Shown here piece after piece: positions 5,013 through 22,312 of a stretch of 24,847 nt of DNA. Numbering within the stretch: position 1 is the stretch's first letter; every line of letters starts with the position of its first letter. The stretch spans positions 1-24,847 of the IMG/VR virus record IMGVR_UViG_3300034198_005829; one strand, given 5' to 3'. The position numbers and the translations under genes are program-made. A model generated the notes under the pieces. That model saw only the letters and a list, made by a program, of their open reading frames with translations, was not told the origin of the DNA and searched no databases. The stretch comes from a virus.

Positions 5013-5479
5013 TGCTACTTGCTGAATTAATCAGTTTTATAAAAGAACAGCAGGACTTGGAGCGTAGCAAGTTTTCTGAAGAAGATTTGCGTGGAAGGAT
5101 ATTAAAGACCTTTCCTTGGGATGAAGAAGGAATGAAACAGTATTTAATATGGGCTTTTTGTAGAGATTATCTTCTAATTGATTCGGATGAAAGTGGTCTT
5201 ACTGGCATCACAGTAGCATATGTTCTTCCTTTTGGTGCTGGAAATTGTATAACATCGCTACTTCCGTATGAAACGGATGTACCTAGAGAACAAGAACATA
5301 CAAAGGACATTACCATAATGGACACAATTTTTAAGACTAAAGCGGCTAGAAAAAACATAACACAAAAATTTATGAAAAGATTCCCTAATTGGAGAAACCA
5401 AAGAAAGTTTGGAAACAGAAAAGGACTCCCTGTAGTCCTTACTAACAAATACATAGAACTCGTTGGAGGACTTAACTAA
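5012..5479 (+). CDS. Small unknown protein in the internal-virion cluster, possibly acyltransferase-like
   Basis: This 155-aa soluble protein has an N-terminal helix (LLAELISFIKEQQ), a central hydrophobic beta stretch (GITVAYVLPFG) and a basic C-terminus with KRFPNWRNQRKFGNRKG. The layout is loosely like small GNAT-type acyltransferase folds, including the late basic FP...R segment, but I cannot point to a CoA-binding motif. T7 has a small gene, 13, in the same place before internal virion genes 14-16, so a role in building the ejection apparatus is a positional inference. The gene is AT-rich. Both ends are coupled to neighbours. Confidence 0.6.
   Translation: MLLAELISFIKEQQDLERSKFSEEDLRGRILKTFPWDEEGMKQYLIWAFCRDYLLIDSDESGLTGITVAYVLPFGAGNCITSLLPYETDVPREQEHTKDITIMDTIFKTKAARKNITQKFMKRFPNWRNQRKFGNRKGLPVVLTNKYIELVGGLN
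5465..5470 (+). promoter_or_regulatory. Shine-Dalgarno site for the 353-aa gene
   Basis: GGAGGA lies 8 bases before the ATG at 5479. It is the only strong ribosome binding site in the left arm. It fixes the start of the following gene even though the two genes overlap by one base. Confidence 0.7.
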
Positions 5480-6540
5480 TGGATTCAATTAAATTTGCAC
5501 AGTTCGGTGGGCGTTCTCCCGATTGCCAATGGGTTCAAGCCGCTATGATGGCGTATAGTGCTATCTCAGCAAACCAAGCAAAGAAGAAGGCTTCTGGTCT
5601 TCTTAACGCTCCTAACAATCGTTCTTATCTTGGTGAGATGCAATCTGCCCTTGATTCTCAAGCAGGGATTCAAGGTCAACTTCTTGACTTAGAAAGCCAA
5701 TATACACCTAGGTATCAAGAATTACAAAAGGAAACACTCATGGGTCAGATGGGTACTCTCAATGACCTGTACGGCCAAGCGATTCCGCAGTCTATGGAAC
5801 TTCAGAGCCAGTATGCTCAAGCACAGGCTCCTGTCTATGGTCAAGTAGGTCAAATGGCCTCTCAAGCCTACCAGCAGACCTTAGACCCCACTACGCAGAA
5901 ACTTGCCGCCCTCCAGCAACAGAGTGCGATGGAAGACCTCACCGCTGGTCGAAACCTCACCCCTCAACAGCAACAGTTAGCCCAGCAATCGGCTAGACAG
6001 GCTATGGCGGCTAGAGGTCTTTCTGGCAATCAAGCGGTTGCCCAAGAGGTTCTGAATTCTTATCAGATGCAAGATGCCCGTGAAAACAGGGCAAGACAAT
6101 ATGCAAATACCGTTTATCAAGGCGGTCTACAACACGCCAGCAATGCGATGAGCCTCTATGGTTCTCCGCTACTTGCTAACATGAATACAGTCAGCCCGTA
6201 TGGTATTATGACTCAATCTCAGCAGATGCAACAAGGTCTTGGTGCTAGGATTTTTAACCCAGAGTCTCAGTACAACGCAGACATCTATGGGGCTAATCAA
6301 AGCAATACTGCACAATCTAGAATGGCTCTTGCAAACATTTACGCAGGACAAAGTGCTGGACAGACTTCTATGATGGGTCAACTTGGTTCTGCTTATCTTA
6401 GCAACCCTAACAATATGTCTTCCTCACCCTCTAGTTCTTCTGCTGGTTCCTTTGGTGCTGGTTCAATGACCGCATCTTCATATCTTGGACAATATGGAAT
6501 GGGCTATTCTTCTGGAATGGGAACAGGAGTTATGAAGTAA
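5479..6540 (+). CDS. Internal virion (ejection) protein, gp14-like
   Basis: This 353-aa protein is extremely rich in Gln, Ala, Ser, Met and Tyr. A hydrophobic N-terminal segment near residues 20-32 (VQAAMMAYSAISANQ) is followed by long amphipathic helices with Gln runs (LTPQQQQLAQQSARQAMAARG). The last 90 residues are a Ser/Gly/Met-rich, probably disordered tail. Proteins of this composition directly upstream of two large genes occur as the first ejection protein in T7-like podoviruses (T7 gp14 is about 196 aa), where they form a pore in the outer membrane. A strong ribosome binding site precedes it, consistent with high expression of a virion component. The role is inferred from composition and order. 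Confidence 0.6.
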   Translation: MDSIKFAQFGGRSPDCQWVQAAMMAYSAISANQAKKKASGLLNAPNNRSYLGEMQSALDSQAGIQGQLLDLESQYTPRYQELQKETLMGQMGTLNDLYGQAIPQSMELQSQYAQAQAPVYGQVGQMASQAYQQTLDPTTQKLAALQQQSAMEDLTAGRNLTPQQQQLAQQSARQAMAARGLSGNQAVAQEVLNSYQMQDARENRARQYANTVYQGGLQHASNAMSLYGSPLLANMNTVSPYGIMTQSQQMQQGLGARIFNPESQYNADIYGANQSNTAQSRMALANIYAGQSAGQTSMMGQLGSAYLSNPNNMSSSPSSSSAGSFGAGSMTASSYLGQYGMGYSSGMGTGVMK

Positions 6541-6545: not shown

Positions 6546-9194
6546 ATGCCTTCTCAATTTGGACAATATCAAGGCGGCATCAAGGGAGTCCAAGGACTTG
6601 CAGAAACTGGTGCTAACATAGGCAAGACTCTTCAACAGGGTATGTCTTCCTTTGGCTCTTCAATGGCTGAAGGCATAAAGGCTTATAATGAGAATCAAGC
6701 CAAAGACCAAGTACTTCAAGAAGAAGCCAAAGCATTAGGAATGCAGATTCAACAGTTTGCGGCTCAGTTTGGAGACTCTCCAGAGCATAAGCAATTTGCA
6801 GATTCGCTTCAGCCTTATATCCAGCAGTTAGCCAAGGTTCCGTCTATGTCTCTCACTCAGAAGATGGGTGCTGTGACTGGCGTTAAAGCGGCCTTTGGCA
6901 ATATTGGTCAGCAATTGCAAGTGTTTGAGATGATGCGTAAGGAGCGTATGGCTAGAGACATGAATGCGGCTAGGGGCGGTGTCAGAGAGTTCGATGAACA
7001 GACTGTTCCGACTGCCATCATTCCGTCTGGCAAGTTGCCTTATTTCTACGGCAAGAACTACACAGAACAAGAAAGCGAACTTGTTAGACTTACCAATGAG
7101 GCTAAGGCTAAAGGTGCTAATGTTGACCTTCCAAAAGTTCTTAACGATTGGAGAAGCGGACTCAAGGCTAACGCTATGTCCAGACCAGACCTTCCTCCGC
7201 AAATCAAGGAGGCTCTTGTTAAGCAGATTGACGCTGGTGAAGGACTCACCGACAACATTCAGACTGACCAAAGCGGAGTCACGGATTACGCCAAGGAAGC
7301 GGAGATGTACGAGAAGACGAGCACATCGGTCAAGGAGCAACTTGCTCCTCAGAAGGTTGAAGCCCCTGTAAACAAGGGTACTGCTCCCGACAAGGCTACC
7401 GAACAGACTAGGTCTTTAATTACTGACACTATCTCTAAGTTAGAAGGCATGAGCAAGACGAAGGAAACTCTGTCAGATTCTGAGTTCAACAAACTTGTCG
7501 CTCAAGACCCTGCTCCGTCTAGATACACTAAGGTTGCTAACCTTGAAACTCAAGGCTGGAAGCGAAGCGTTGATGACAAGGGCAAGGTTTCTTGGTCTAA
7601 GGAGACAGAAAACAAACAAGTCAGCGATGCTCTTGCTATCTATAAGGGCGAACTGGATAAGTTAAATAAGCCTACAAAGGAAGCAGAAAGAGCAACCAGA
7701 GAAGAATCCGACAAGAAGGAACTAACAGAAATTGATTCCCTTCTTAAGAGCACACAAGAAAAGATAGATTCTGGAGAATCCTTAAGTATGGGTGAAAAGG
7801 AAAAGTTGCTGGATGGTGCGGCTAGATACACAAGACAATTTGGAACTTGGCTTGGAAAGCAATCCGCTATGGATTCTGCACGAACAATTAGCGGAGAGAT
7901 TACCGATGAGGTTGCTGACCGTCATATGGAAAGTGTAATTTATGGTAATGGTGCAAATACATCGGTTGCTGATAATGTGAAAAACTTTGCTATTGAAGGC
8001 ATAGCATCAAGCCCTGCTGGAGTTGCATTAGGAATAACTAATCCTTACGCTAGAAAACTCACAGTTAACGAGACCAAGCGACTTGAAGCGGCTTACGAAA
8101 GACTTAAAACAAAGAAGGCTGTTGAAATGGAAAAGGCTGGAGTGAATTCAACAGAGTTAATTGCGGCTCTCAATACCAGAAAAACTCAGTTACAAAATTC
8201 TATTGCTACAGGAATTAAGGCTCCTACTGCGGCTGATATGTCTAAGGCTCAACAGGCAACTGCGGCTGAACAGCCTAAGCCAGAACAAGAGTATACTCTG
8301 ACGAATCAGTACAATATGACGCTTGGAACGACTACAGGCCAAGTTGCTACTTCCCTTGAAAGCAAGCGTAAAGATATGAAGGCTTTCTTTCAGAACAAGT
8401 ACGGATATATCCCCGCTTCGTTTGAGGAATCATTTAAGGCTACTTATCCCGAAGCCAACTTCAAGACAATGGAAACAGCATATGGTGCGTTCATGTGGGA
8501 TGGCAAGGACTGGAAGCAAATCCAGATGAAAGAATATAAGCCTCCGTCTCGCAAGGAATTGGCTGAAGAAAAGGCTGTTTCGTTTGGTAAGTTACAACCC
8601 GACTCCAGCATTGATATCAATGAGTTCGGTGAACTTGTGCCTAACTCTGGCGTGTATGTTCGTGGTATCTTTGGAGGAACTCCAACAGAAGCGTTTAAAT
8701 TCAGAACAGATATGCTAGAAGGCTCTAATGCTAAGAAAGCAGTAGCCAGACTTACTGAGATTAATGACATGGTCGGTGAGTCTATGCCTTGGAACTCTAA
8801 AGTCTGGGGCGAAGCCAAGGCTCTCCTTCCTCAGATTAAGGCTGGTCTCAGAACTGACATCATTGGTGTCGGTACAGTTTCTAACTACGAACAAGAACTT
8901 ATCAACGATGTTGTGGCTGACCCAACAAAGTTCTGGTCTCTTGAGGCTTCCGATAGGGCTAAAATTGCCGTCATTATGGACAAGATTAGCAATAAACTTG
9001 TTCAAGCCCCCGCTAACTATGGTCTTGAGGTTAGGATTGCTGGCAAGCGTAATGAAGAACTTGAAAGAGGCTTCAAGATGGGCAGGGCTGGCAAGTCTAA
9101 ATTAGAACTTGATTTCGAGGCTAGAGGTGGCAAAAAGGGTGTTGGTCTTAACTGGAACTTATCTAACAAAATTCCAGACGCTCTTAAAAACTAA
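6546..9194 (+). CDS. Large internal virion (ejection) protein, gp15-like
   Basis: This 882-aa protein starts with a small-residue-rich segment (GLAETGANIGKTLQQGMSSFG). Long stretches of charged helix and probable coiled coil follow, with KEAERATREESDKKEL near residues 378-395. The C-terminal third is more globular. There is no signal peptide and no enzymatic motif I can recognise. The place between a Gln-rich ejection protein and a giant multidomain protein matches T7 gp15 (747 aa), which forms the periplasmic part of the DNA-ejection channel. It starts 5 bases after the previous stop without a Shine-Dalgarno sequence. Another possibility is a scaffold-like virion protein, but the order favours ejection. 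Confidence 0.58.
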   Translation: MPSQFGQYQGGIKGVQGLAETGANIGKTLQQGMSSFGSSMAEGIKAYNENQAKDQVLQEEAKALGMQIQQFAAQFGDSPEHKQFADSLQPYIQQLAKVPSMSLTQKMGAVTGVKAAFGNIGQQLQVFEMMRKERMARDMNAARGGVREFDEQTVPTAIIPSGKLPYFYGKNYTEQESELVRLTNEAKAKGANVDLPKVLNDWRSGLKANAMSRPDLPPQIKEALVKQIDAGEGLTDNIQTDQSGVTDYAKEAEMYEKTSTSVKEQLAPQKVEAPVNKGTAPDKATEQTRSLITDTISKLEGMSKTKETLSDSEFNKLVAQDPAPSRYTKVANLETQGWKRSVDDKGKVSWSKETENKQVSDALAIYKGELDKLNKPTKEAERATREESDKKELTEIDSLLKSTQEKIDSGESLSMGEKEKLLDGAARYTRQFGTWLGKQSAMDSARTISGEITDEVADRHMESVIYGNGANTSVADNVKNFAIEGIASSPAGVALGITNPYARKLTVNETKRLEAAYERLKTKKAVEMEKAGVNSTELIAALNTRKTQLQNSIATGIKAPTAADMSKAQQATAAEQPKPEQEYTLTNQYNMTLGTTTGQVATSLESKRKDMKAFFQNKYGYIPASFEESFKATYPEANFKTMETAYGAFMWDGKDWKQIQMKEYKPPSRKELAEEKAVSFGKLQPDSSIDINEFGELVPNSGVYVRGIFGGTPTEAFKFRTDMLEGSNAKKAVARLTEINDMVGESMPWNSKVWGEAKALLPQIKAGLRTDIIGVGTVSNYEQELINDVVADPTKFWSLEASDRAKIAVIMDKISNKLVQAPANYGLEVRIAGKRNEELERGFKMGRAGKSKLELDFEARGGKKGVGLNWNLSNKIPDALKN

Positions 9195-9199: not shown

Positions 9200-12100
9200 A
9201 TGGCTGAACTTTACGCTAAACCCTATGAAGTAATTGATACGGGTTATAATCCTCAGCAGACCCAACAAGGCGGTCAAAATGCTGAAATGCAATCCTATCT
9301 TGAGTCTCTTCCCCCAGAGGAAAGACAGAAGGCTATGGAGCGTATTAATTCTCCGCTTAGTGGCGAGGAATTAGCATTGATGGCTCAGTCTGGACAGAAA
9401 GCACCGACATTAGAAGAATACGCTGAGATTGAAAAATGGCACAAAGGTCACGAAATTTCGTTTATTGATGGTATTGGTAAAATAGCCGAAGCGGGAGGGC
9501 AAGTGATGAGTGACATCACGAATGCTATGGGTTCGTTTGTGAATAATCCTTCTGATGCTACATCAAAGATGCCAGCCACGGCTGTCGAGGCGTTTGCTCA
9601 AGGCACAAGAAACTTCTATGGGATGCTGGCTCAGTCTGGCAATCCCGATTCTGCTTTATTCAGAGTCAAGGACTTCCTCAATGGCACAGGAAGAATTGAG
9701 GATAGGTATAATCAGTACATGGAAGCCCTTAAATTCAATAGGGATTCCGCTGACCTCGCTGAAGGAAAGCAAACCCTTGTCATGGACAAGGACATGATTA
9801 ATCACGAAATTACACAGGCAATGGCGTACATCGCTGACCCTACCCTGTTCATTCCTTTTGGTAAGGTTGCTTCTACTGGTCTTCGTGCTATTGGTCTTGG
9901 CGAAAAACTTACTATGGCTGGGGCTAGGTCTGCGGCTATCAAGAACGGTATCCTTGGAAATACACTCAAATGGGGTGCTGGTCAACCTCTGGAGTTCCTT
10001 GGTGGTGCTGTTAGAAATACCATTGATTATGGATTAGAGAAGGCTGGGGCGGCTTTTGAAGCCACTACTGGCATGGAGGCTAAACAGTTCGCCCAGACTG
10101 CCAGAATGTCTGGAATAGGCTTTTCTGCTTCAGCGGTTGCTGGTCACGCAGTTCCTTACGCTTCTACGATTTCTGATGCCTACATTGTAGGTTCCTCTGC
10201 CAAGGGTTTCGGCGAGGCTCTTACCCTCATGGGAGAAACTATGTCCAAGAATAAGTTTGGACGAGGTATAAACTCTTGGGCGGCTGAGTCCCTTGAACAG
10301 GCTGAAAAGAACGGCGTTGCCCTAAGCCCTCATGCCAAGGGTCTTCTAAAGACTTTAAACGCTGTTGACCCGCTCTTTGCCTACGGCTGGAACGGTCTTG
10401 AAGGTGCGGCTGAAGGTGCGTTGATTGGTGGCGTATTAGGTTACGCAAGCGGTGGCGAGGAAGGTATGTACAGCGGCATTGGTGCTGGCGTCGCCCTCGG
10501 CGGCGTAGGTGCTACCGCTGGCAAGGCTGTTGCTGATGTGACAGGTGGTACTAATGTCGCCAGACGAGCCGTCCAAGCCAAGATGGTCATCGAAGGTCAC
10601 AAGGTAACTAACCCAGATAAGGCTATGTTCTTCCAAGCCATGCAGACTACTGCTGAGGCTAGAGGACAAGATGTAGACTTAGTTAACGGCATCATTGCTG
10701 GTATCGATAAGGTCGCTCCAAACTTTGAGTTCCATGCCCTCACTCCAGACCAGTTTAAGATTGAGGCTATTCGCAAGGGATATAATCCGTTCACGGGTAA
10801 GTTCGCTGAGTTTACGGCATTAAGCAATGAGTTCGGCTCAGATAGGGCATCTAAATCTAAGGCGATGTATATTCTTCGCTCAGTAGGCGGTGACTTTGTT
10901 GGCGATAGCAAGTCGTTCCTTGCGGCTCTCAAAAAGGCTTCTGCCAAGGATTCTACTAATCCCAATAAGCCAGCGGGTAACATTCCTGCCAATTTAAGAA
11001 AGTACACGGATGTCGCTAAGACATTTGATAAACTCACCAAGACGCAACAAGACGCTGTCCTAAAGGAAATTGACGGACAGGCTAATTTTTCAAAGGAACT
11101 AGGCGGTAGCACGAAACTCCGTGAACACTATGATGCCCTTTCTTGGTCTGAGGCATGGACTGATTCATTGGTCAAGAAGTTTGAATCTGACAGAGAAGGT
11201 GCAAGAAAGGATATCATTGATATGCTTTCACGGGAAACCAAGAAGAACGGTGAACGCACACTCAAGGGTCAGAGATTAGTAGACAAACTGACGGCTGAAG
11301 GATTCTTAGACAGAGACGGCAAGTTGCTCCGTAAGCGTAATCTGCATCAAGCGGATATGACGCTTATTGAGTTCGCTTCCACCAAGGGCGGGGTGATGAG
11401 AAGAGATGCTGATGGAAAGACGCATATGTACATCAACCTAAATAACATGGGTAGTGAGACATTCCCGCACGAACTCTTCCATACAATCATGCGTGAGTCT
11501 CCGATGAAAGACCATTTCACGAAGTCTTTGATTCAGAAACTTGTTGGCTCGTTTGACGCTCAAGGCAACCTCGTCAGAAACGGAGAAGTTAATGTCAACC
11601 AACTCCGCAAATTCTTCAAGAAGTATATCGACCTCACTTCCTTCGATGAAGACGGCACGATGAATCCTGTTAAGGCAGAGGAGACCATGAAGGCTGTTGA
11701 GATTGCCCTCGGTGAGTACGAACAGTCTGGCAAGAACAAGAAGATTTCGGCAGAGTCCAGAGACCTACTTGAGAAGTACACAGAAGAGTTCGGTGCTTAT
11801 TATTTTTCGCATTGGCTGATGGGTCGCAACAGAAACACCCTGTTCTTTGGTGGCGAACTCAAGGGCATTGAAGGTCTTGTCGAAAGAACCAAGGATTCGT
11901 TCATGGACTTCTGGCAGTCTAAGATTTCCAAGGCTAACCCAGAGTTCGATTTCTCCAAGGGACTCAATGAATCGTTCAGTCGCTCCAAGGGTCTTGGTCG
12001 CATCTCTTCGATGGACTACTACATGAGGGACATGGTCAGAGCCGCCTCTAATGCCAACAGAGACGCTTTCAAGCCCGACTCAATGACCCTTGAAAACCTC

Positions 12101-15100
12101 AGAGATTTTGAGCAAAGCAACGGTCTTAGAAACCTCACAAACAAGGATGGCAACAGAAGACTTAATCCTCCCGAAAGAAAGAAGCAGAACCATGCTCTTG
12201 GCAAGGAAGGATTCAAGATTCTCAGCGGACTGGATAAGAACCTCCGCACATCCAAGGACACAATCGATGAGAACGGAAAGCCTGTCATCACGGGCAGACT
12301 GTCTGAGGCTGAATTAGACGCTCTCGTCAAGGGCGGTATCGTTCCTAGGGCTTGGGCTGACAAGGTCAACCAAGGCTATGCGATGCTTGACGGCACGGTC
12401 TCTAATGTCTACTCGGCTGGCTATCTTGGTTTCTCTGAGCAGACCACGGATGCATCCTACCCAAGACTATACGGCAAGGATGTTGCGTTCAAGAACCGCA
12501 AGGCTATCCTCTTTGACATTGAGACCAAGATTAAGGCTGACGGTACATTCTATACGCTTTTCCATAACATCGACTTGGCTGTTGTTGAACAGCGTGGCAA
12601 CCACCTCTGGCAGAACACAGACTACAGAAACCTTTGGAATGGCGACAGGGGTGCTATGGAGGCTGATTTCTTCAGATACATCAGCAACGCTTCCAAGGCT
12701 TCTACGGACACTAAGAAGTTAGACTCTGCGGCTCTTCTTGAGAAGGGCGATGGTCTTGGAGCACAGCGTAGAGATGTCCTTCAGCAGATGGCTGGCATGG
12801 CTCTCCAGACTGGCGATGCCTACAAGCATCAGCCTATCGCTGTCATCCCAGAGGGCATCAGACACAGCGTAACCACATTTAACATCGATGGTCTTACTAC
12901 TCCCCGTGTCGAACAGGGTGCTAGATACGACATCGACATGAAGAACGCTCACAAGTTCATCCGTGAGAACTGGCAACCCGATGACATGAGACAAGAAAAA
13001 ACTCCTGTTGGAAGGGTGCTTACTCACGAATCTGGATTCAAGTTCACTCAAGATGCCAACGGAAAGGTCTCTGCTTACACATCTGTTGGTGCTAAGATTG
13101 GCACATTTAACAGCATAAAGGAAGCAACTGTCGCTGGCAAAAACAAGTTCAACGATGTTTACAAGAACCACGATGCTGAAGTAAAGAAGGTCTTTGAAAA
13201 AAAGAACGAGGAAGCAAAGCGATTCCAAGCCTTGGATGAAAACGAAAGACAAGAAGCCATAAGAAACGGAGACCTGTTTTCTCTTGAGCGTGTAAAAAAC
13301 TTCATAGGAAACAGAAAGGTTCTTCGTCAGTCCAGAGAGGAGTTCATAATTTCTAAGGTCATTGAAGCGGTTGAAAACCCAGAGATACTCAAAAACTCAG
13401 TCACAAAAGCATTATCTTCGACAAATAAAACTGCGATTCAATATAGAAAACTTCTTCAAGAATTTGTAAAAGTAGGCGAAGAAGAAAAAAGATTAGCAAA
13501 TGAACATGGTGTGTTATATCAACAATGGCTAAAAACAACAGATGCTGACAAAAGAAGTATGCTTAGTCAAAAAATGACTGAGAACTCTGAAGCCGCCCAA
13601 GTACTTCAAGTTCAAAGACCAAAGGCTAAGTTTAACTTAGAAAGATTTGAGTTAGAAATGCAAAAAGAAAGAGTTGAGGCATTCGTAGAACTTCAGAATT
13701 CTATGTCTCATCTGACTCCAGAACAGTTTACCGAAGTTGTAAAGAATGAGTTAATGCTTACATACAATCCAGAACTTGGAGGAAAATATAAGGCTATCAA
13801 AAAGGCTCACTCTGGGATTGCTGAGACATTGTTTGCAAAAGAGTTTGACGACCAGACACAGACTGGAGTTCCAATTGTAGTTGTTGGAACACACGGAACT
13901 AGAAATGTAGAGTTAATGATTTCTAGAATACTGCTAGATGAAAAACTTGGTTCTCGATATGGAACAGCCGCAGGAGGAAAAGCGTACTCTTCTGACCTTG
14001 GTCACTTTATGGGTGGCTCTACCGACACCTCTTCCTCATATTCTGGAATTCCTCCTTCAGCATTTACTGAATATGCAAAAAATGGTATTCCTGTTAATCG
14101 GCTTGCTGAGTTCTTAGGTGATGGTGCTTTCTTAAATCCTTATGGATTCCCAGAATCACATCCTGTTTATAGGCTTAACAAGGCAATATTTGAACTTAAG
14201 AAAAATAGCCAAAAGGTTAACGATGCCCTTCTTTTTAAAGCACAAGATGCATATTTGGAACTATTTGACAAAGGAGATAAACTTTCCTACGATGACTTGT
14301 TGGCAAAGGCAAGAGAAGTGCAAGGTATTTTATCACACCTAAAGGATATTAGGTATATTAGTGACAATGCACACAGAAATTTAATTAATCTTACGGTAGA
14401 AGCATTTGATAAGTCCGTAAGAAAAGAAAGACAAAATCGAATCAGTAGAGATGAATTCAATGATTACCTTAACAATGCTGAGGTTTTAGTTATAAATCCT
14501 ATGTTTTCTCCTTTAGATGAAATGCGTGTTTCTGTTGATGAGTTACTTGGGGGAGAATTAAAAAACCAAGACAAGGAAATAAAACTTCCAGAAGGAAAGT
14601 CTATTAAAGTAAAGTACGACAACGAACTGTACAAAGAAGTTATTAAGTTGTCGCAAGAAACAATAAATACATTAACTGACACTTTTAACGGCTGGATGGG
14701 CAAGACCAACTTTGAAAACAAAGTAAAGATGGTCATTGGTGGAAAAAAGTTTTACGAAGGTTCTAGTACCGTAGAACCTGCTAAAACTTGGATGCAAATC
14801 AGAATGCTAATGGCTTTTGATAATCCAAAGGTTATCATAGACCCAAGAGGATATGATGAAAGCAAGTTAGCACCTCAAATGATTCAAGCCATCAACGAAG
14901 GGCATGATGGTATTATCTTTAAGCGTCTACGAGACGGAGGCTCTGAGGATGATATTTACATTCAACTCAAGGGCAATCAGAACAAGATACTTACTATTGA
15001 TACATCCTTTGACTCACAACACATTCCAAGAAAAGATGAAAATGGTAATGTTCTTAAAACAGGAAGAGATATTGGTTTAGCCCTTCAACCAGATGAGGTT

Positions 15101-17845
15101 GATGCACCAAAGCAAGTCCAAGGCATTAAACTGGACATGACGAAGGCTTATGATGTCTTCAGACAGGAATACGAAGAGTCTACTGGTCAGTCTTGGTCGC
15201 AGGATAAGTTCATGCAGAGAGCCAGAAACTGGCAGTTCTTTGGTGACGAGAATGGCTTTGTAGCCGTCAGACCTCAGCGTTCTGGCTTCGTGAAACTGGT
15301 CGGCATGGCTGGTGACAACAAGTCTAAACTTCGTGGCATCCAGCAGATTCAACAACAGGGTCTGCCTATCTGGGGCATGGTAAGCAAGGACATCAAGGAC
15401 ATGGCGGTCAAGCGTGGTATGCGTGAGCCGAACATGATTGAGCGTACTGTGCTTAAACAGGCTCTGAACTCTGCGGCTCTTGGCGATGCTGAGATTCTTG
15501 GTTACACATCCGACAACGGAGTTAGACTCAGATACCCAGATATCGGTGAGGTCACTAAGTACATGATTGGTAGCCCAGAGTACTACCAGAAATTACGCTC
15601 TGCTTTTGGTGAACAAGTCAAGAGCAAGATTGGATTCCAGCCAGCAGAGGGCGGTGCTGACAGCGTAGCCACAAGAAACAAGATTACTCTGGATACTAAC
15701 GGGGTGCTGTCCAAGTTAGGCATGAACCTAAAGGATAAGACCAAGATGGAAATCTGGATGAGGCATCTGACGGATGACCCTGCTACAGCCTTGGAAAAAA
15801 TCAGAGAAGAAGGTCTTGTCGGCTGGATGAAGAACAGAGCACAAAGCGTTATTGATGCCGAAGTGGAGTCTTGGGACGCTGGATATAAAGAATTAAAGCA
15901 TCAGCAAAAGGTTGCTCAACAGTTTTTAGACAAAGTTGAATCTGGCAAAATTGACACGACTAATTTCATGCCAGCGGAGGGAGACAATTACAGGGGTTCT
16001 CACAAAGCACCTTCTGGAGAAAGTGGAGAAGGCTCTCTTGATGCGATGGATAGAACATATCCAGAAGACATCTACTCTGTCAATGGTGCTAGATACTATG
16101 GCACAAGAGAAAAAAGTGACGCTGAGATGATTAGCATCATTCAAAATCTTCGTGGCAAACCAGATGAATTAGTCTCTGTCTATAGAGCCGTTCCTAAAGG
16201 CACTAAGGGAGAAATCAATGCTGGAGATTGGGTTACTCCTTCCAAGGCTTATGCTCGCCTTCACGGAGGTCGCTGGGAGGAAGGCATGAGAATAATCGAG
16301 AAGAAAGTTCCTGCTAAAGAACTCTTTACAGAAGGCAATTCTATCTACGAATTTGGCTGGAGTCCAAAGAAGAAGTCACGGGCTGATGTTCTTAGAGAAG
16401 AAATCGCAAGCGATGAGAAGTGGATGGAAAGAAGAAGAAGCCAAGCCCCTGTTTTGTGGGAAACAAAAGGAAGCAAAATTTACAGACACAGGATGGACAT
16501 AGAAAGAAGGATTTCTTCCCTTAAGTACGAACTCAATCGAGTTGAACGAGAAGGAAAGACATCGTTCCAGCCAGCGGAGGGTGTCAACGCACCTGTCAAT
16601 GAGGTAAATAGAAACTTTATCTTAGATACAATATCTGGCAATGAAAACAGCCGTCGTGCCTTGGAAGAAGGCATGAAGCAAGCCAAGGACAGAAAGCAGA
16701 ACTTCATAACAATAGATAACATCAACCCAGAATTGCTTCGTGGCGAGGCTGTGGTCATGCACTCACCCGACAACGCTGGTGTTGAGCCTGTCCAGATTGG
16801 TAGGTTTACTGTCAACCCTAGGGGCGGTATGCGTTTTCCGTCAGAAAACCCGACATTAGGTTGGGCTGGAGTTAAGGCTGGTCTTGGCAAACAAATCAAC
16901 GACAACGGAAACTATAACGCTGACAAGGGCAAGGGCTGGAGTTCTGGCGTTGGTCTTATCAAGGGCGAGTATTCTAAGATGAAGGGAACGCACATCGGTC
17001 TTGAGGTGTTCCTACGCAACCTACAGAAATATACGGACAACAATGTCTTAACAGAAAGACAGACAATCCAGATTTTAAAGAATGGTCTTGGTGACATAGG
17101 TGACACTAAGCGTCCGCTTGACACCATCGTTGAGGGCATCCTTGCCAAAAGTGCCAAGCACGAACCCCCGTATACAATCGATGGAAGGAGAACGGCTATC
17201 GAAAAAATGACCGAGACTGACGGCTCTGCATCGCTCTGGAAATATCTTCAGTCTGACCTCACAAAGTTAGAGTCACAAACTGATGGCTTCACTTCCGAGG
17301 GTGTCACAAACGCCAAGCAGTTTATCAAGGCTTTACTTGAGCCTATGTATGAGGCTGTCTCTGACCCCCTCACAAGACACGCTAAGGTTGGAGAGGTGTA
17401 CGGGTATCTGATGTTCAGAAGTCCTGTGACGGAGCCTATGTCTGATGTTCACCCTTCATACAAGTATGCCGTACAGCCAGAAAAGGGAGGCAGTCCTGTG
17501 CAGTTAGATATCTTGTCTACGCCTATGAGTGCTAGGAAGGCATTTACAAACAGGATTACCGCTGGCGAGGTTTCCCCCCTTCCAGAATCTGAGGCTGGGT
17601 TTAAGGTATCCACGGGTCAGAAACATATCCCTACAATGCGTGGCACATTTATGCCAGCGGAGTTCACGGAGTTTAAGTCTGAGCAGTCACCCACGGGTCG
17701 CATCCTGCGTAACGCCAAGGGCTATGTCATCATGTTAGCCAACAATAAGTTCAGAGTCTACAATCCCTCTAAGGCTATCATCGGTGTCTACGGCTCAGAG
17801 GAAGAAGCCAAGAAGCGTATCTACAAGGAAATCCCTAAGCGATGA
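9200..17845 (+). CDS. Giant polyvalent internal virion protein with peptidase and ADP-ribosyltransferase domains
   Basis: At 2881 aa this is about twice T7 gp16 (1318 aa) and takes its position as the last ejection gene. Residues 1-400 are helical. Residues about 395-450 are very Gly/Ala-rich (EGALIGGVLGYASGG) and may enter a membrane. HELFH at 757-761 plus EE at 862-863 indicate a zinc metallopeptidase. Residues about 1000-1260 resemble a block I have seen in large phage proteins. A short unit at 1271-1317 recurs at 2833-2878. Residues about 1320-1560 are charged helices. HGT at 1565 to DGII at 1903 looks ART-like. A clearer ART has R2329, S2348 and E2384. FxPAE motifs occur at 2146, 2256, 2456 and 2817. 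This matches the large polyvalent proteins described in phages, which are injected with DNA to act on the host. I see no lysozyme motif. Confidence 0.75.
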   Translation: MAELYAKPYEVIDTGYNPQQTQQGGQNAEMQSYLESLPPEERQKAMERINSPLSGEELALMAQSGQKAPTLEEYAEIEKWHKGHEISFIDGIGKIAEAGGQVMSDITNAMGSFVNNPSDATSKMPATAVEAFAQGTRNFYGMLAQSGNPDSALFRVKDFLNGTGRIEDRYNQYMEALKFNRDSADLAEGKQTLVMDKDMINHEITQAMAYIADPTLFIPFGKVASTGLRAIGLGEKLTMAGARSAAIKNGILGNTLKWGAGQPLEFLGGAVRNTIDYGLEKAGAAFEATTGMEAKQFAQTARMSGIGFSASAVAGHAVPYASTISDAYIVGSSAKGFGEALTLMGETMSKNKFGRGINSWAAESLEQAEKNGVALSPHAKGLLKTLNAVDPLFAYGWNGLEGAAEGALIGGVLGYASGGEEGMYSGIGAGVALGGVGATAGKAVADVTGGTNVARRAVQAKMVIEGHKVTNPDKAMFFQAMQTTAEARGQDVDLVNGIIAGIDKVAPNFEFHALTPDQFKIEAIRKGYNPFTGKFAEFTALSNEFGSDRASKSKAMYILRSVGGDFVGDSKSFLAALKKASAKDSTNPNKPAGNIPANLRKYTDVAKTFDKLTKTQQDAVLKEIDGQANFSKELGGSTKLREHYDALSWSEAWTDSLVKKFESDREGARKDIIDMLSRETKKNGERTLKGQRLVDKLTAEGFLDRDGKLLRKRNLHQADMTLIEFASTKGGVMRRDADGKTHMYINLNNMGSETFPHELFHTIMRESPMKDHFTKSLIQKLVGSFDAQGNLVRNGEVNVNQLRKFFKKYIDLTSFDEDGTMNPVKAEETMKAVEIALGEYEQSGKNKKISAESRDLLEKYTEEFGAYYFSHWLMGRNRNTLFFGGELKGIEGLVERTKDSFMDFWQSKISKANPEFDFSKGLNESFSRSKGLGRISSMDYYMRDMVRAASNANRDAFKPDSMTLENLRDFEQSNGLRNLTNKDGNRRLNPPERKKQNHALGKEGFKILSGLDKNLRTSKDTIDENGKPVITGRLSEAELDALVKGGIVPRAWADKVNQGYAMLDGTVSNVYSAGYLGFSEQTTDASYPRLYGKDVAFKNRKAILFDIETKIKADGTFYTLFHNIDLAVVEQRGNHLWQNTDYRNLWNGDRGAMEADFFRYISNASKASTDTKKLDSAALLEKGDGLGAQRRDVLQQMAGMALQTGDAYKHQPIAVIPEGIRHSVTTFNIDGLTTPRVEQGARYDIDMKNAHKFIRENWQPDDMRQEKTPVGRVLTHESGFKFTQDANGKVSAYTSVGAKIGTFNSIKEATVAGKNKFNDVYKNHDAEVKKVFEKKNEEAKRFQALDENERQEAIRNGDLFSLERVKNFIGNRKVLRQSREEFIISKVIEAVENPEILKNSVTKALSSTNKTAIQYRKLLQEFVKVGEEEKRLANEHGVLYQQWLKTTDADKRSMLSQKMTENSEAAQVLQVQRPKAKFNLERFELEMQKERVEAFVELQNSMSHLTPEQFTEVVKNELMLTYNPELGGKYKAIKKAHSGIAETLFAKEFDDQTQTGVPIVVVGTHGTRNVELMISRILLDEKLGSRYGTAAGGKAYSSDLGHFMGGSTDTSSSYSGIPPSAFTEYAKNGIPVNRLAEFLGDGAFLNPYGFPESHPVYRLNKAIFELKKNSQKVNDALLFKAQDAYLELFDKGDKLSYDDLLAKAREVQGILSHLKDIRYISDNAHRNLINLTVEAFDKSVRKERQNRISRDEFNDYLNNAEVLVINPMFSPLDEMRVSVDELLGGELKNQDKEIKLPEGKSIKVKYDNELYKEVIKLSQETINTLTDTFNGWMGKTNFENKVKMVIGGKKFYEGSSTVEPAKTWMQIRMLMAFDNPKVIIDPRGYDESKLAPQMIQAINEGHDGIIFKRLRDGGSEDDIYIQLKGNQNKILTIDTSFDSQHIPRKDENGNVLKTGRDIGLALQPDEVDAPKQVQGIKLDMTKAYDVFRQEYEESTGQSWSQDKFMQRARNWQFFGDENGFVAVRPQRSGFVKLVGMAGDNKSKLRGIQQIQQQGLPIWGMVSKDIKDMAVKRGMREPNMIERTVLKQALNSAALGDAEILGYTSDNGVRLRYPDIGEVTKYMIGSPEYYQKLRSAFGEQVKSKIGFQPAEGGADSVATRNKITLDTNGVLSKLGMNLKDKTKMEIWMRHLTDDPATALEKIREEGLVGWMKNRAQSVIDAEVESWDAGYKELKHQQKVAQQFLDKVESGKIDTTNFMPAEGDNYRGSHKAPSGESGEGSLDAMDRTYPEDIYSVNGARYYGTREKSDAEMISIIQNLRGKPDELVSVYRAVPKGTKGEINAGDWVTPSKAYARLHGGRWEEGMRIIEKKVPAKELFTEGNSIYEFGWSPKKKSRADVLREEIASDEKWMERRRSQAPVLWETKGSKIYRHRMDIERRISSLKYELNRVEREGKTSFQPAEGVNAPVNEVNRNFILDTISGNENSRRALEEGMKQAKDRKQNFITIDNINPELLRGEAVVMHSPDNAGVEPVQIGRFTVNPRGGMRFPSENPTLGWAGVKAGLGKQINDNGNYNADKGKGWSSGVGLIKGEYSKMKGTHIGLEVFLRNLQKYTDNNVLTERQTIQILKNGLGDIGDTKRPLDTIVEGILAKSAKHEPPYTIDGRRTAIEKMTETDGSASLWKYLQSDLTKLESQTDGFTSEGVTNAKQFIKALLEPMYEAVSDPLTRHAKVGEVYGYLMFRSPVTEPMSDVHPSYKYAVQPEKGGSPVQLDILSTPMSARKAFTNRITAGEVSPLPESEAGFKVSTGQKHIPTMRGTFMPAEFTEFKSEQSPTGRILRNAKGYVIMLANNKFRVYNPSKAIIGVYGSEEEAKKRIYKEIPKR
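10382..10549 (+). other. Glycine-zipper-like segment of the giant protein
   Basis: Residues about 395-450 contain alternating Gly and small residues (GVLGYASGG, SGIGAGVALGGVGATAG). This pattern is common in pore- or membrane-associated parts of phage ejection proteins. Membrane insertion is inference. Confidence 0.4.
11387..11914 (+). other. Zinc metallopeptidase domain of the giant protein
   Basis: Residues about 730-905. A beta strand with MYINL leads to a helix carrying HELFH (H757, E758, H761). A second helix about 100 residues on has YTEEFGAYYF, with E862 or E863 as likely third zinc ligand. HExxH plus a downstream Glu in an EExxAxxF context is the gluzincin-like arrangement seen in peptidase domains of phage polyvalent proteins. 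The substrate is unknown; self-processing or host proteins are both possible. Confidence 0.65.
13010..13150 (+). repeat. Internal protein repeat, copy 1
   Basis: Residues 1271-1317 begin GRVLTHESGF and end with a charged helix (SIKEATVAGKNKF). The order of strands and helix, and the GR(V/I)L start, match residues 2833-2878 at the C-terminus. The copies have diverged, so the match is at the level of pattern. Confidence 0.45.
13350..15075 (+). other. AT-rich block within the giant gene
   Basis: Hand counts give 18/60 G+C at 14161-14220 and 19/60 at 14401-14460. Flanking samples are 30/60 at 12961-13020 and 32/60 at 15361-15420. The reading frame stays open throughout. The block covers the coiled-coil region and the first ART-like region. 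Limits are approximate. Confidence 0.6.
13877..15034 (+). other. ADP-ribosyltransferase-like region of the giant protein
   Basis: Residues about 1560-1945. VVVGTHGT (H1565-T1567) starts a beta strand as in HGT/HGS-type ART-like domains, and AINEGHDGIIF (D1903) with a following beta strand resembles their C-terminal end. About 300 residues between them are longer than usual and probably contain an insert. No clear catalytic Glu is assigned, so it may be inactive or a different fold. Confidence 0.35.
15635..17662 (+). repeat. Four FxPAE motifs in the C-terminal part of the giant protein
   Basis: The motif F-(Q/M)-P-A-E occurs at residues 2146-2150, 2256-2260, 2456-2460 and 2817-2821. The nucleotide positions are 15635-15649, 15965-15979, 16565-16579 and 17648-17662. 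Three are followed by Gly. They bracket segments of 105, 195 and 356 residues that have unrelated sequences, so they look like boundary tags, not duplicated domains. Confidence 0.7.
15980..16384 (+). other. R-S-E type ADP-ribosyltransferase domain of the giant protein
   Basis: Residues about 2261-2395. Core elements are in the expected order: YRAVPKG with R2329, GDWVTPSKAYARLHG with S2348, and VPAKELFTEGNSIYEFGW with E2384. An upstream YRGSHKAP / YPEDIYS / RYYG stretch is typical of phage ART domains of this kind. There is no Glu two residues before the catalytic one, so arginine specificity is not implied. The target is unknown. Confidence 0.62.
17696..17833 (+). repeat. Internal protein repeat, copy 2
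   Basis: Residues 2833-2878, beginning GRILRNAKGY and continuing FRVYNPSKAIIGVYGSEEEA, form the extreme C-terminus of the giant protein. They correspond in pattern to residues 1271-1317. The unit looks like three or four strands plus one helix. Confidence 0.45.
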
Positions 17846-18147
17846 GCCAAGACCCACAGTCCCTCGATGTCATCGCAGAAGAATTCAAGAAGACAGGCTG
17901 GCTGTTTGCTGTCCTTGGTGCTCTTGGGATGCTTGCTAGGCTTATACTTACTGACGAGAAGTACGAGATTATGCGATGGACTAGGATGGTTCTGGCTGGT
18001 GCTATCGTTGGGGTGGTCTGCTACTTCGCCCTTGCTAACGCTGATATAGACCCTTTCTACAAGAGCGTCCTGTGCAGTATCTCTGGCTCTATTGCTCCAG
18101 AGGTATTCAACTGGGCTAGACGCAAGTTCCTACAGAAAACTAAATGA
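17842..18147 (+). CDS. Holin-like membrane protein (superfamily III / LydA-like)
   Basis: This 101-aa protein has three hydrophobic stretches: about 19-37 (GWLFAVLGALGMLARLIL), 48-66 (MVLAGAIVGVVCYFALA) and a weaker one at 71-88 ending in SGSIAPEVFNWARRK. The final APEVxxWARR pattern is like LydA-type phage holins. Holins set lysis timing by forming holes in the inner membrane. It overlaps the giant gene (ATGA) and the following spanin-like gene (ATGA), which makes a compact lysis unit. No endolysin sits in this cassette. The nearest muralytic enzyme is on the other strand at 22486-22965. Confidence 0.65.
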   Translation: MSQDPQSLDVIAEEFKKTGWLFAVLGALGMLARLILTDEKYEIMRWTRMVLAGAIVGVVCYFALANADIDPFYKSVLCSISGSIAPEVFNWARRKFLQKTK

Positions 18148-18857
18148 GATTCCTAATCCCTGTCCTGTTACTCTGCGGTTGTTCTACTGCACCCATCCCT
18201 ACTACCCACAATCCCATTGAGCCGCAAAACAAAGAGAAGGACACCTACATCCAGAAAGTCGAGTCTGTCGTTTCTGACTCTGCTTCTGCCCTTACTGCTG
18301 TCGTTCCTGTCCTCAATAAAGGAACTGTCAGAGAAGTTGTCGAAGCCCAAGTGACCCGTCTGTCTGGCATCTCTAAGCCATCTGTTGCCAAGGTAGAGGA
18401 GTTCACCCGTATCATCGAACAGAATGACACCAAGGCTGTCCAGAAGGACAAGAAGGAGGCATCCAAGGTGGACGCTGAGACCTCAGCCCTGTACGCTATG
18501 GTAGAGCAGAAGGACTGGGAGATACAGGAGGCTCACGCTAGGGCTGACGGGGAGTTCAAGCAGAAGGTACTCTGGCAGTTCAGCACCGCAGGGCTGGGGC
18601 TGTTTGTGACTGGCTTACTTGTGGTTGCCTTCACCCCGTTCAAGACCAATGGGGTAATCGTGATGGCTGGTGGTGCGTTGGCTATGGCTTCCCTGTGGGT
18701 GTTTGACTCTACTTGGTTTACTTGGATAGTCGGAGGCTCTATAGGCACAGCCGTCCTATGCACGACCTTCGTGCTTATCAAGAAACTTACTTCCAGAACT
18801 CCTCTGGAATCACATCCACAAAAACAGGAGTCCGTTGACCCGCATCAGCCCCAATGA
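18144..18857 (+). CDS. Spanin-like lipoprotein with C-terminal membrane segments
   Basis: This 237-aa protein begins MRFLIPVLLLCGC, a lipoprotein signal with C13 as lipid site; Cys at the -2 position of the lipobox is unusual. Residues about 30-140 are charged and helical, probably coiled coil. Two or three hydrophobic segments follow at about 145-163, 169-187 and 191-213, and a polar tail ends the protein. An outer-membrane lipid anchor plus a C-terminal inner-membrane anchor is the layout of unimolecular spanins such as T1 gp11, which fuse the membranes at lysis, but those have one C-terminal segment. The position after a holin-like gene supports a lysis role. An antiholin or other membrane role is possible. 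The last 71 bp overlap an opposing gene. Confidence 0.5.
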   Translation: MRFLIPVLLLCGCSTAPIPTTHNPIEPQNKEKDTYIQKVESVVSDSASALTAVVPVLNKGTVREVVEAQVTRLSGISKPSVAKVEEFTRIIEQNDTKAVQKDKKEASKVDAETSALYAMVEQKDWEIQEAHARADGEFKQKVLWQFSTAGLGLFVTGLLVVAFTPFKTNGVIVMAGGALAMASLWVFDSTWFTWIVGGSIGTAVLCTTFVLIKKLTSRTPLESHPQKQESVDPHQPQ

Positions 18858-19068
18858 TGTTGAAGTGCATATACTCTTCAGCAGTCTCAAAGTCCATATT
18901 ATCATTCTCCATTAGGTTAGAGATGATACGCTCCGTGGAATAAACAGCAACCACTCCGTTAGGGGTGTTAGTAAGTCCAATAAAGGCGTGAGCAAGTCCG
19001 TCAGCAATAATAATACCATCGTCTAGTTCAGCAAGAAACTCTTCTAGTTTTTCGTTATCGGATTTCAT
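18787..19068 (-). CDS. Small acidic conserved-type phage protein (93 aa)
   Basis: This acidic protein (many Asp and Glu) has the pattern DDGIIIADGLAHAFIGL, then a Tyr-containing helix around ERIISNLMEND, then AEEYMHFNIIGADAG and TPVFVDV. I recall small phage proteins with the same order (DxIxxADGxxxAFxG ... EExxxFNxxGA ... TPVF) of unknown function. This makes the gene credible even though its 3' 71 bp overlap the opposing spanin-like gene. It is the last gene of the leftward transcript and is coupled by ATGA to the winged-helix gene upstream. Confidence 0.72.
   Translation of the reverse strand: MKSDNEKLEEFLAELDDGIIIADGLAHAFIGLTNTPNGVVAVYSTERIISNLMENDNMDFETAEEYMHFNIIGADAGQRTPVFVDVIPEEFWK
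18791..18809. terminator. Possible bidirectional terminator hairpin inside the convergent overlap
   Basis: TTCCAGA, a 5-base loop ACTCC and TCTGGAA form a perfect 7-bp stem. It lies where the two arms of the genome meet and within coding sequence of both converging genes. There is no good U tract on either side, only GTTTCTT after the stem on the - strand. Termination is therefore uncertain. Confidence 0.3.
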
Positions 19069-19298
19069 TTGATTCGGTAGTGGGGAATAGGGCGAGTTAC
19101 CATCCCAGACTTCACCCGATACATACGGGTTTCAAGAAGATTATTCTTGAGAGCAACAGCAAGTTTACGGGAAATGATAGGCTCAGAAAGATTCCAGAGT
19201 TTCTGGATTTCCCTGCGTGTGTAAAAACCCTTTTCTGGTTTCTCGCATACTGCTTTCCCAAACAGTCTCTCCATAGCCTTGAGGTCTTTAGCGTTCAT
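19065..19298 (-). CDS. Small winged-helix DNA-binding protein (77 aa)
   Basis: The frame is open further upstream, but the start at 19298 (MNAKDLKAMERLF) overlaps the TGA of the phosphoesterase gene (ATGA) and fits the coupling seen across this operon. Residues about 26-58 (TRREIQKLWNLSEPIISRK and following helix NNLLE) look like helix-turn-helix, followed by a basic hairpin (RVKSGMVTRPIPHYRIK) as wing. It is probably a transcription regulator of the phage, but its operator cannot be identified. Confidence 0.62.
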   Translation of the reverse strand: MNAKDLKAMERLFGKAVCEKPEKGFYTRREIQKLWNLSEPIISRKLAVALKNNLLETRMYRVKSGMVTRPIPHYRIK

Positions 19299-20032
19299 AG
19301 TCCTTTGATAGAGTAGATGAATTCTTTGCCGACACGATGGGCTTGCCAGACCTTCCAGTCGTTTCCTTGGGTGAACCCATAAGTCCAGCCCGACCCCCAT
19401 TTGCTGGTGGCTAGGCGGTTCTTAGCGTAGTCGGGGGACTTACCACATAGGCAACCACCAGAGAAGCCCACAGCACCCCCGTGCTTACGGGCATTGACTT
19501 GCTGGATAGAATGCAGGTGACCCATAATGACAGCACCCTGCGGTTCAGCATAATGGATTGCGTGTTCCTCTACGGCACGGACACCACAGGTATAGCCGTG
19601 GACGAAGGCAACCTTTCCTAATCTGTGTACGCCTTCTTCAGCGTGGTAATCGTAAATCTTCTTGCAACCATTCTTCTTGAGGTGGTTACGAATGTCGTTC
19701 TTGAGGTCGTGGCAGTAGTCTACCATCATCCCGTGCGTAGAGCCGTTGATAATCTGGTCGAGTCTGTCATCGTGATTACCGTTTAGGAAAATAGTAGGTT
19801 GGACACGGGTGATGAATTCCTTTCCAGCCTTGACATCAGCCACCAGCGATTCATCTTCTTCTTTGCGTCCTGCACCCCTTCGGATGCTACGGAAATCGAA
19901 GTTATCTCCTAGGTGGATGACCTCGTCTGGGTCGAACCATTTTAGGAATTTGTAAAACTGCTTGGCAACATCTTCATCGATGTGGTCTCCGTGGTTATCG
20001 CCCACGGCTACGAACTTAATTAGTTTGCTCAT
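19295..20032 (-). CDS. Calcineurin-like metallophosphoesterase
   Basis: With the start at 20032 (MSKLIKFVAV) the protein has 245 aa. All the motifs of the family are present in order: GDNH (D12, H14), GDNFD (D43), GNHDD (N86, H87), HG (H145) and GHLH (H172, H174), which bind two metal ions. This family hydrolyses phosphomono- or diesters, and phage members act on nucleic acids or on nucleotides. The protein lacks the extra domains of SbcD/Mre11 and has a Cys-containing insert near GGCLCGKS. An upstream open stretch to 20158 was rejected because it covers the end of the next gene. The start overlaps that gene by 17 bases. Confidence 0.82.
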   Translation of the reverse strand: MSKLIKFVAVGDNHGDHIDEDVAKQFYKFLKWFDPDEVIHLGDNFDFRSIRRGAGRKEEDESLVADVKAGKEFITRVQPTIFLNGNHDDRLDQIINGSTHGMMVDYCHDLKNDIRNHLKKNGCKKIYDYHAEEGVHRLGKVAFVHGYTCGVRAVEEHAIHYAEPQGAVIMGHLHSIQQVNARKHGGAVGFSGGCLCGKSPDYAKNRLATSKWGSGWTYGFTQGNDWKVWQAHRVGKEFIYSIKGL

Positions 20033-20222
20033 TGGAAATATCGAATGTGTCGTTACGCAAAACTTTGAATTGGTCTGTACGCATATGACGGATGACACCA
20101 TCCTTCTCAAAGACAATAGCAAAGATATCGTTAGACCAAGTCCCGCCATCCCGCACATACATCAGCCAGCCATAACCGATGTCGGTGCTGACTGGGATGG
20201 GGTTGCGGAATTCGTGAATCAT
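20016..20222 (-). CDS. Small hypothetical protein (68 aa)
   Basis: A beta-rich 68-aa protein (YGWLMYVRDGG, IFAIVFEKDG) with a short charged tail. The start overlaps the stop of the coiled-coil gene (ATGA), and the 3' end overlaps the phosphoesterase by 17 bases. It has no membrane segment or motif. It is accepted as real from its tight packing in the operon. Confidence 0.6.
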   Translation of the reverse strand: MIHEFRNPIPVSTDIGYGWLMYVRDGGTWSNDIFAIVFEKDGVIRHMRTDQFKVLRNDTFDISNEQTN

Positions 20223-20464
20223 TTTAGATTACGGAGATGTTCTAGGTCTTCAAGGCAACGCAACCAGCGTCCGTGGTCGCACTCAGCCTCAATCTTCCAG
20301 TAATTAACCCTGCCCTTGAGAACCTCTACCTCAGCCTTGAGGCGGGTGTTCTCCTCTGCTAAGGCACGGCACTCGATGCCTAAGTTCAGTACGCTCTTGG
20401 CTAGGCTAGTCTTGATTGGGTCTTCAAAACTATGTTCGTAGAAGACTAACTTTGGGGTGTCCAT
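20219..20464 (-). CDS. Small coiled-coil protein (81 aa)
   Basis: The start at 20464 (MDTPKLVFYEHSF) was chosen because an upstream start at 20497 would overlap the preceding gene by 52 bases instead of 19. Residues about 30-55 (ALAEENTRLKAEVEVLKGRV) form a leucine-zipper-like heptad pattern, so the protein probably forms a dimer. The C-terminus is charged and has Trp and Cys residues. Function is unknown. Confidence 0.58.
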   Translation of the reverse strand: MDTPKLVFYEHSFEDPIKTSLAKSVLNLGIECRALAEENTRLKAEVEVLKGRVNYWKIEAECDHGRWLRCLEDLEHLRNLK

Positions 20465-20667
20465 TTGTTCAGAGGTTTTGCAAAAAGTACAGCCCACCGA
20501 TTTTTGTTGGAATCAAAGCACGAAGCGGTGATAGAACGCTCCCAGCCTGTCTGCTTTTTTCCAGCCAGAACGCTACCCGTTCGTTTCGGTAGCGAACTTC
20601 TTCCACTAGGTCTCTGCTCATTTGGGAGTGCAAGTAACTGCTTTGCATATTCGCTTAGTTTGGGCAT
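20446..20667 (-). CDS. Small basic hypothetical protein (73 aa)
   Basis: This basic protein (many Lys and Arg, for example RPSGRSSLPKRTGSVLAGKK) has no membrane segment. The start overlaps the 3' end of the HTH gene by 13 bases. The charge suggests nucleic-acid contact, but nothing more can be said. Confidence 0.5.
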   Translation of the reverse strand: MPKLSEYAKQLLALPNEQRPSGRSSLPKRTGSVLAGKKQTGWERSITASCFDSNKNRWAVLFAKPLNKWTPQS

Positions 20668-20948
20668 AGTTTACGCTTCTGTAAGAGCATCTTGCATACA
20701 TTGAACTCACGCACGGAGCGTTGGTTCTTCGGGATAAGAAGAAGGTCGTAGTATTTGAGCAACTGCCTGTCATCAAACTTTCCTAACTGTTCTTCATAGC
20801 CAGCCTCCCACTCGTTTCTCAGAGTAGGAAGATTGTAACGGGTCTTGCACTTGGCGATGGAAGTATGGTTAAGATTGAACTTAGCCCCCGCTTGCTTGGC
20901 TGTCAGCCCTTCGACAAGGGCGAGTCGGTATGCGTCTAGTGAGGTCAT
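20655..20948 (-). CDS. Small helix-turn-helix protein (97 aa)
   Basis: Residues about 4-30 (LDAYRLALVEGLTAKQAG followed by KFNLNHTSIAKCK) match a helix-turn-helix with the second helix starting at NHTSIAK. The remaining 60 residues are helical and charged. It could be a regulator or part of a terminase-like or resolvase-like small HTH family. The start is coupled to the previous stop by ATGA. Confidence 0.58.
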   Translation of the reverse strand: MTSLDAYRLALVEGLTAKQAGAKFNLNHTSIAKCKTRYNLPTLRNEWEAGYEEQLGKFDDRQLLKYYDLLLIPKNQRSVREFNVCKMLLQKRKLCPN

Positions 20949-21503: not shown

Positions 21504-21521
21504 AGGATTTATAGGTTAGGA

Positions 21522-22268: not shown

Positions 22269-22312
22269 ATTAGGGGATGAGTGAGAGAAGAATTCCATAG
22301 GTGATAGTAGTA

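Follow-up and report, generated by a model that had tools for sequence, protein, structure and literature searches.

The window, meaning the whole stretch of viral DNA that was analysed, is a complete IMG/VR record of 24,847 bases in which one giant reading frame stands among the following genes:

5479..6540, plus strand: 353-aa Ala/Gln-rich protein at the position of T7 gp14 (gene order, composition)
6546..9194, plus strand: 882-aa upstream protein at the position of T7 gp15, with only a weak match to a PHROG of unknown function
9200..17845, plus strand: giant putative ejection/polyvalent protein of 2881 aa, one uninterrupted frame with full-length homologues
17842..18857, plus strand: holin-like and candidate spanin/lysis-like genes, directly downstream of the 2881-aa ORF

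Homologues along the whole length of the 2881-aa protein were found in other viral contigs, where they are likewise giant proteins of 2.3-3.4 kaa, and the ORF is therefore considered a real gene. Family searches gave no match for the 353-aa neighbour and no family for the 882-aa neighbour beyond the weak PHROG. The holin-like gene matches holin PHROG 6384 (E=9e-5), and the second downstream gene is, judged from its sequence, a candidate spanin/lysis-like gene. By gene order, the 2881-aa gene is the last of the virion-gene block, with the lysis genes next; in relative L003, genes for a major head protein and a tail fibre belong to the equivalent block as well. The T7 gp16-like position claimed in an earlier sequence-only reading is borne out, with gp14/gp15-like genes before and lysis genes after, and this gene order suggests packaging into the virion and ejection. 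The likeness to T7 gp16 is one of relative gene position; T7 gp16 is less than half as long, no sequence match to it was obtained from the 2881-aa protein in Pfam, PHROG, NCBIfam or PDB searches, and no lytic transglycosylase domain was detected with Pfam and PHROGs. To the right, at 19065-24605, the window has consecutive minus-strand ORFs that point towards the structural block.

Viral contigs were scanned four times: the whole protein as query gave 6 loci, the constant region 16, the C-terminal domain 56 and the zincin region 66, with overlap between these sets. The family comprises several dozen viral contigs, and dropping near-duplicates left 35 giant proteins in the family set. Two scans of a bacterial and archaeal genome collection gave no confirmed relative of the 2881-aa protein, tblastn found no cultured phage with the whole protein, and sequence searches of Pfam, NCBIfam and the PDB with the whole protein as query returned nothing useful. 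Residues 1 to ~1400 and the last ~65 aa can be aligned across members, and the stretch between them is swapped. Common to the members are a hydrophobic N-terminus, a putative HExxH zincin and a first junction, followed by shuffled enzyme modules. The constant parts of the window protein, and the helical segment behind them, are:

9200..10669, plus strand: N-terminal constant region, residues 1-490, conserved in all relatives
10670..11989, plus strand: putative zincin-type metallopeptidase region, residues 491-930 (alignments; HExxH conservation)
11384..11386, plus strand: residue 729 (Lys in the window), candidate specificity position, best of 961-975 constant-region columns
11468..11482, plus strand: HELFH, residues 757-761, predicted zinc ligands and catalytic Glu (invariant H/E/H)
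11783..11788, plus strand: E862-E863, candidate third zinc ligand, invariant, within the EEFG(A/S)YYF helix
12986..13174, plus strand: first copy of the small beta-beta-beta-alpha domain, residues ~1263-1325 (homology to copy 2)
13187..13819, plus strand: predicted helical/coiled-coil segment, residues ~1330-1540 (secondary structure of homologous region)
17663..17842, plus strand: C-terminal beta-beta-beta-alpha domain, copy 2, residues 2822-2881, with a basic end (tail scan; homology to copy 1)

Within residues 1-490, hydrophobicity and glycine content mark weakly hydrophobic Gly/Ala-rich segments near residues 216-234, 306-324 and 427-445, and the glycine-rich segment already noticed in the sequence lies at residues ~391-450, with up to 32% Gly. 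This region may form the membrane or ejectosome part of the protein. The region that follows, putatively a zincin-type metallopeptidase, is split by a lineage-specific insertion at ~540-715. HExxH occurs in 33/33 relatives with an intact N-terminus, and both HExxH and EEF are invariant among aligned representatives, the helix around the latter reading EEFGAYYF in the window protein. Of the peptidase proposed earlier for HELFH, the motif, its conservation in the 33 relatives and an EEFG(A/S)YYF-like helix downstream all stand; the fold was not independently recovered. A model of relative L017, of modest confidence, places strands before the HExxH helix, the structural match lists for this model name no zincin, an absence that says little because the lists were filled by the ART domain and the coiled coil, and a PDB sequence search gave no match. 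The small domain at ~1263-1325 and the one at the C-terminus are homologous by hhalign (98.2%, E 4e-14), and the variable array thus has one copy on either side; the C-terminal copy lies at, or a few residues from, the ORF end in 41/41 tail-scan loci examined.

Between the two copies, four modules were delimited in the window protein:

13832..15079, plus strand: ART1, residues ~1545-1960 (PARP/tankyrase-like fold of relative L017; sub-threshold ART-PolyVal)
15119..15601, plus strand: GNAT acetyltransferase, residues 1974-2134 (AlphaFold2 model and structural matches)
15980..16399, plus strand: possible second ART, residues ~2261-2400 (R...TPS...E pattern; PHROG 2579)
16580..17647, plus strand: recurrent ~350-aa module, '[N/H]xPDT...W...Y...H..Y', residues 2461-2816, found in many relatives

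Structural searches with the model of the ART1 homologue in L017 find matches in the catalytic domains of tankyrase and PARP, by Foldseek at probability 1.00 with an E of about 0.01 and by VIA at a Z of about 7-8. Pfam ART-PolyVal is below cut-off in L017 (E=0.0017) and passes it in modules that family members L013 and L014 carry. With an H-Y-D-like pattern in the window formed by THGT (1564), SSSYS (1611) and GHDG (1901), the assignment of ART1 as a PARP-like ADP-ribosyltransferase is supported by the modelled fold of the relative, in agreement with the probable ADP-ribosyltransferase of the sequence-only reading. The GNAT segment, which that reading had overlooked, was modelled at a pLDDT of about 90; its VIA list is filled by GNAT chains, the best of them at Z 9.6 with 121 residues superposed at an rmsd of 2.7, and Pfam GNAT is above cut-off in relative L001. 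A domain of this GNAT type also forms the C-terminal part of a 737-aa protein of an uncultured 735-kb phage (L021:10417-12630).

Residues 2261-2400 match PHROG 2579 (E=7e-37), were modelled at a pLDDT of about 30 and had no match in a PDB profile search. A second ART had been put forward here as possible, and it is kept at that strength: the R...TPS...E-like pattern and the PHROG match agree with it, and the fold is not confirmed. According to tblastn, many mycobacteriophages carry this domain, under labels as varied as 'ParB C-terminal domain', acetyltransferase, aminotransferase or hypothetical; the sequence pattern suggests that these relatives may be ARTs rather than what their annotations state. 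The module at 2461-2816 is common to many relatives, which had likewise gone unnoticed; family searches returned no match for it. PDB matches to PPR proteins, none with a stretch that qualified, were rejected as repeat artefacts.

With ART1 (fold seen in a relative), GNAT and the HExxH region as unrelated domains in one chain, the earlier description of a multidomain, polyvalent-type protein holds, and the domain types of the polyvalent class that are present in the family are ART-PolyVal, GNAT and the MPTase-type HExxH region. The suggestion that the particular module order might be undescribed needs to be recast, because close relatives have quite different module sets and the order in the window is only one of many. 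In the close relative L025 (L025:2261-5044; tail 98% identical), two extra GNAT-like modules and another module replace the window set, and a remnant of ~25 aa between two junctions looks like a deleted module.

The modules each begin after a short peptide of the form [F/Y/W/M]-x-[P/V]-x-[E/D], and six copies of this junction, none of them noticed in the sequence-only reading, lie in the window protein:

12971..12985, plus strand: J1, WQPDD, residues 1258-1262 (conserved position, lineage-specific code)
15083..15097, plus strand: J2, LQPDE, residues 1962-1966 (motif at module start)
15635..15649, plus strand: J3, FQPAE(GG), residues 2146-2150 (repeat search)
15965..15979, plus strand: J4, FMPAE(G), residues 2256-2260 (repeat search)
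16565..16579, plus strand: J5, FQPAE(G), residues 2456-2460 (repeat search)
17648..17662, plus strand: J6, FMPAE, residues 2817-2821 (repeat search)

The 6 matches compare with 0.04 expected in shuffled sequence, the pattern having been defined from the same data. A repeat search without a preset motif ranked this peptide with the leading repeats of many of the 35 proteins and returned QPxE, MPAE, KPAEG, KVSD and other codes by lineage; repeat strength varies, and some members are without a clear top repeat. The code is uniform within a protein and differs by lineage (FQPAE, FMPAE, FKPxE, YKVSD and WSPSE), and that of J1, which lies in the constant region, predicts the codes downstream. The nine proteins of the QP class hold 50 QP junctions vs 1.5 expected, together with three MP junctions; the five KP-class proteins hold 27 KP junctions vs 2.9 expected, and the eight KV-class proteins 32 KV junctions vs 4.3 expected, both classes with 0 QP. 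Homologous modules bear the code of the protein in which they reside, and so the code tracks the resident protein and not the module.

The median distance from a junction to a homology breakpoint is 1 aa vs 9 for random positions, and 96% of junctions vs 55% of random positions lie <=10 aa from a breakpoint, a proximity that is partly built in because the junction motif is itself conserved. In predicted models the junctions sit in low-pLDDT linkers. In the phages checked, no other ORF repeats the peptide, and no equally clear junction repeat was seen outside the family in the Helicobacter mosaic polyvalent protein L094 or in Caudoviricetes L022. Part of the latter, a 'coil containing protein' (L022:4494-13931; 3145 aa, from an uncultured phage), weakly resembles the AcrIF11 anti-CRISPR ADP-ribosyltransferase family, with a score below its cut-off. 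No description of a junction code or motif was found in the portions of Iyer et al. 2017 (PMC5512222) that were searched, nor of the code in the openly licensed literature searched; polyvalent proteins and the zincin-processing idea date from 2017, and the lineage-specific junction code appears to be new.

Among the constant-region columns, residue 729 was singled out by exploration, before a partial out-of-sample check. It starts a strand 28 residues upstream of HExxH; in well-known zincins, the substrate-binding edge strands lie in the strand region preceding HExxH. Glu-729 was present in 13/13 proteins with a Lys code and in 0/20 others, which carry Ala, Gly, Lys, Asn or Ser, making it the only perfect single-residue predictor among 961 columns. 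On the constant-region tree, the Lys code requires 5 parsimony steps and Glu-729 likewise 5, and the Lys code changes with residue 729 at every step in these first 33 proteins; under a null that allows for a match to any column, random 5-step traits found one in 57/20,000 trials. With 12 proteins added (45 in total), Glu-729 was found in 16/16 Lys-code proteins and 1/29 others, one mismatch where the next-best column has four, the Asp of L134 being scored as non-Glu. When columns were compared with the five-way code, residue 729 ranked 1st of 975 columns by normalised mutual information and 4th by raw mutual information, with Lys or Ala under the Q code, Ala or Ser under M, Glu under K, mostly Asn under H and a mixture under S. 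Predictions fixed before the junctions were read were right for 10/12 scorable proteins, most of these from clades already sampled; of the two deep lineages not sampled before, one bore the prediction out and the other went against it. The two failures, L127 (Glu) and L134 (Asp), both have the S code and belong to one deep lineage. Additionally, when two Lys-code lineages were compared alone, the zincin was not singled out, and controls gave similar counts of convergent residues.

Because the code and residue 729 change together, the protein's own zincin probably recognises the junctions or cuts at them, as judged from these sequence patterns. The explanation considered best, and held with some confidence though well short of certainty, is that of a virion-delivered polyvalent polyprotein whose own zincin recognises the junction peptides and probably cleaves there, releasing exchangeable enzymes. 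A constant N-terminal part (ejection/membrane region and zincin peptidase) would be followed by exchangeable host-directed enzymes and then by the small C-terminal domain; the zincin would recognise the junction peptide ahead of each module, and cutting at these sites would probably release the enzymes. The further proposal, given somewhat better than even chances, is that the zincin and all junction sites co-evolve as lock and key, such that modules can be swapped but must adopt the resident code. Junction position 2 and residue 729 would form the recognition pair, switching jointly between lineages; since this pair changes together, an incoming module would have to take the resident junction code.

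The architecture, the shuffling of modules, the ART and GNAT folds, the concerted junction code and the covariation with residue 729 are computational results, and from the invariant catalytic motif we infer an active zincin that probably cuts at the junctions. Zincin processing of polyvalent proteins was proposed independently by Iyer et al. 2017 (PMC5512222), who contrasted DdrB of phage P1, which is processed ahead of packaging, with N4 vRNAP, which goes into the virion whole. Any cutting of the present protein could accordingly take place at assembly, in the capsid or in the cytoplasm. In favour of a zincin that reads the junctions are HExxH in all 33 intact relatives and the restriction of the peptide repeats to this protein in the phages checked. 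Counted against it are the L127/L134 lineage, the two-lineage comparison, codon likeness among the junctions and the unrecovered zincin fold, and, against cleavage in particular, the case of N4 vRNAP, a comparable giant ejected protein that has an HExxH domain and enters the virion uncut.

This N4 precedent, together with the fact that covariation shows recognition and not catalysis, leaves a small share of probability for junctions that serve as docking motifs, bound without cutting by a zincin-like groove (perhaps catalytically idle) or by another constant part. Such docking, which appears unlikely on balance, would serve to arrange or pack the modules inside the virion or the ejection channel, and the small domain at both array ends, each copy just after a junction, could join such packing. 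However, HExxH and the downstream EE are invariant in aligned members, which would be needless for a pure binding groove, and the junctions lie in predicted flexible linkers between unrelated enzymes.

That modules are shuffled exactly at the junctions would also be expected if the junctions were recombination adapters, short shared DNA enabling module exchange, with the uniform code arising from gene conversion. The same-codon fraction at junctions exceeds expectation in most proteins tested, including the window (0.66 vs 0.42), though not in all (0.46 vs 0.45 in L001), and therefore DNA-level homogenisation contributes. As the full explanation this is improbable: identical peptides are written with varying synonymous codons, and DNA homology predicts no covariation with a zincin residue >500 codons away. 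Still harder to credit are plain linkers, in which the motif would cap domains as a widespread structural element and its link to residue 729 would be a phylogenetic coincidence. Codes do cluster by clade and one deep lineage breaks the residue-729 rule, but in the first 33 proteins each of the 5 parsimony steps of the Lys code has its counterpart at residue 729, and the sequence identity of the motif is far above shuffled expectation. The covariation thus disfavours both adapters and plain linkers.

Recognition and probable cleavage by the in-chain zincin would bear on the cutting of polyvalent proteins by zincins, an open proposal since 2017. The family gives candidate sites (six here), a candidate enzyme and a candidate specificity residue, which puts the proposal within reach of a test on purified protein. 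If it holds, the sequences of other members would reveal their cleavage sites, module boundaries could be drawn even where no fold is known, and the modules could be listed as candidate anti-host or anti-defence enzymes. A protease would then also have coevolved with several sites inside one chain.

MARTX toxins carry interchangeable effector modules that are released by an in-chain cysteine protease. Polymorphic toxins likewise combine interchangeable effector modules with a releasing in-chain peptidase (PMC3482391). The likeness is one of working only (exchangeable effectors plus an in-chain peptidase), with no evidence of homology; unlike these toxins, the present protein is phage-encoded, has a putative zincin in place of a cysteine protease, and its targets are presumably in the phage's own bacterial host. 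The polyvalent proteins of phages and conjugative elements, as described in PMC5512222, are multidomain, undergo rapid domain shuffling and are predicted to be delivered together with DNA. The 2881-aa protein resembles them in its large chain, zincin motif, ART-PolyVal-type ART, GNAT and shuffled domains, and differs in its constant front, its two bracketing small domains and a code that covaries with a zincin residue. The N4 vRNAP gp50 is a giant (~3500-aa) ejected protein whose N-terminal part is predicted to insert into membranes and which has an HExxH domain and a payload enzyme (PMC12633501), and the present protein is similar in its giant size, its candidate membrane part, its HExxH region and its payload enzymes. 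In contrast, the N4 payload is a single RNA polymerase, the N4 zincin follows the payload, and the N4 protein is packaged unprocessed. In relative L003, an extra module (L003:16760-17701) has a weak match to an N4-type vRNAP PHROG (E=0.0013), around profile positions 2071-2247.
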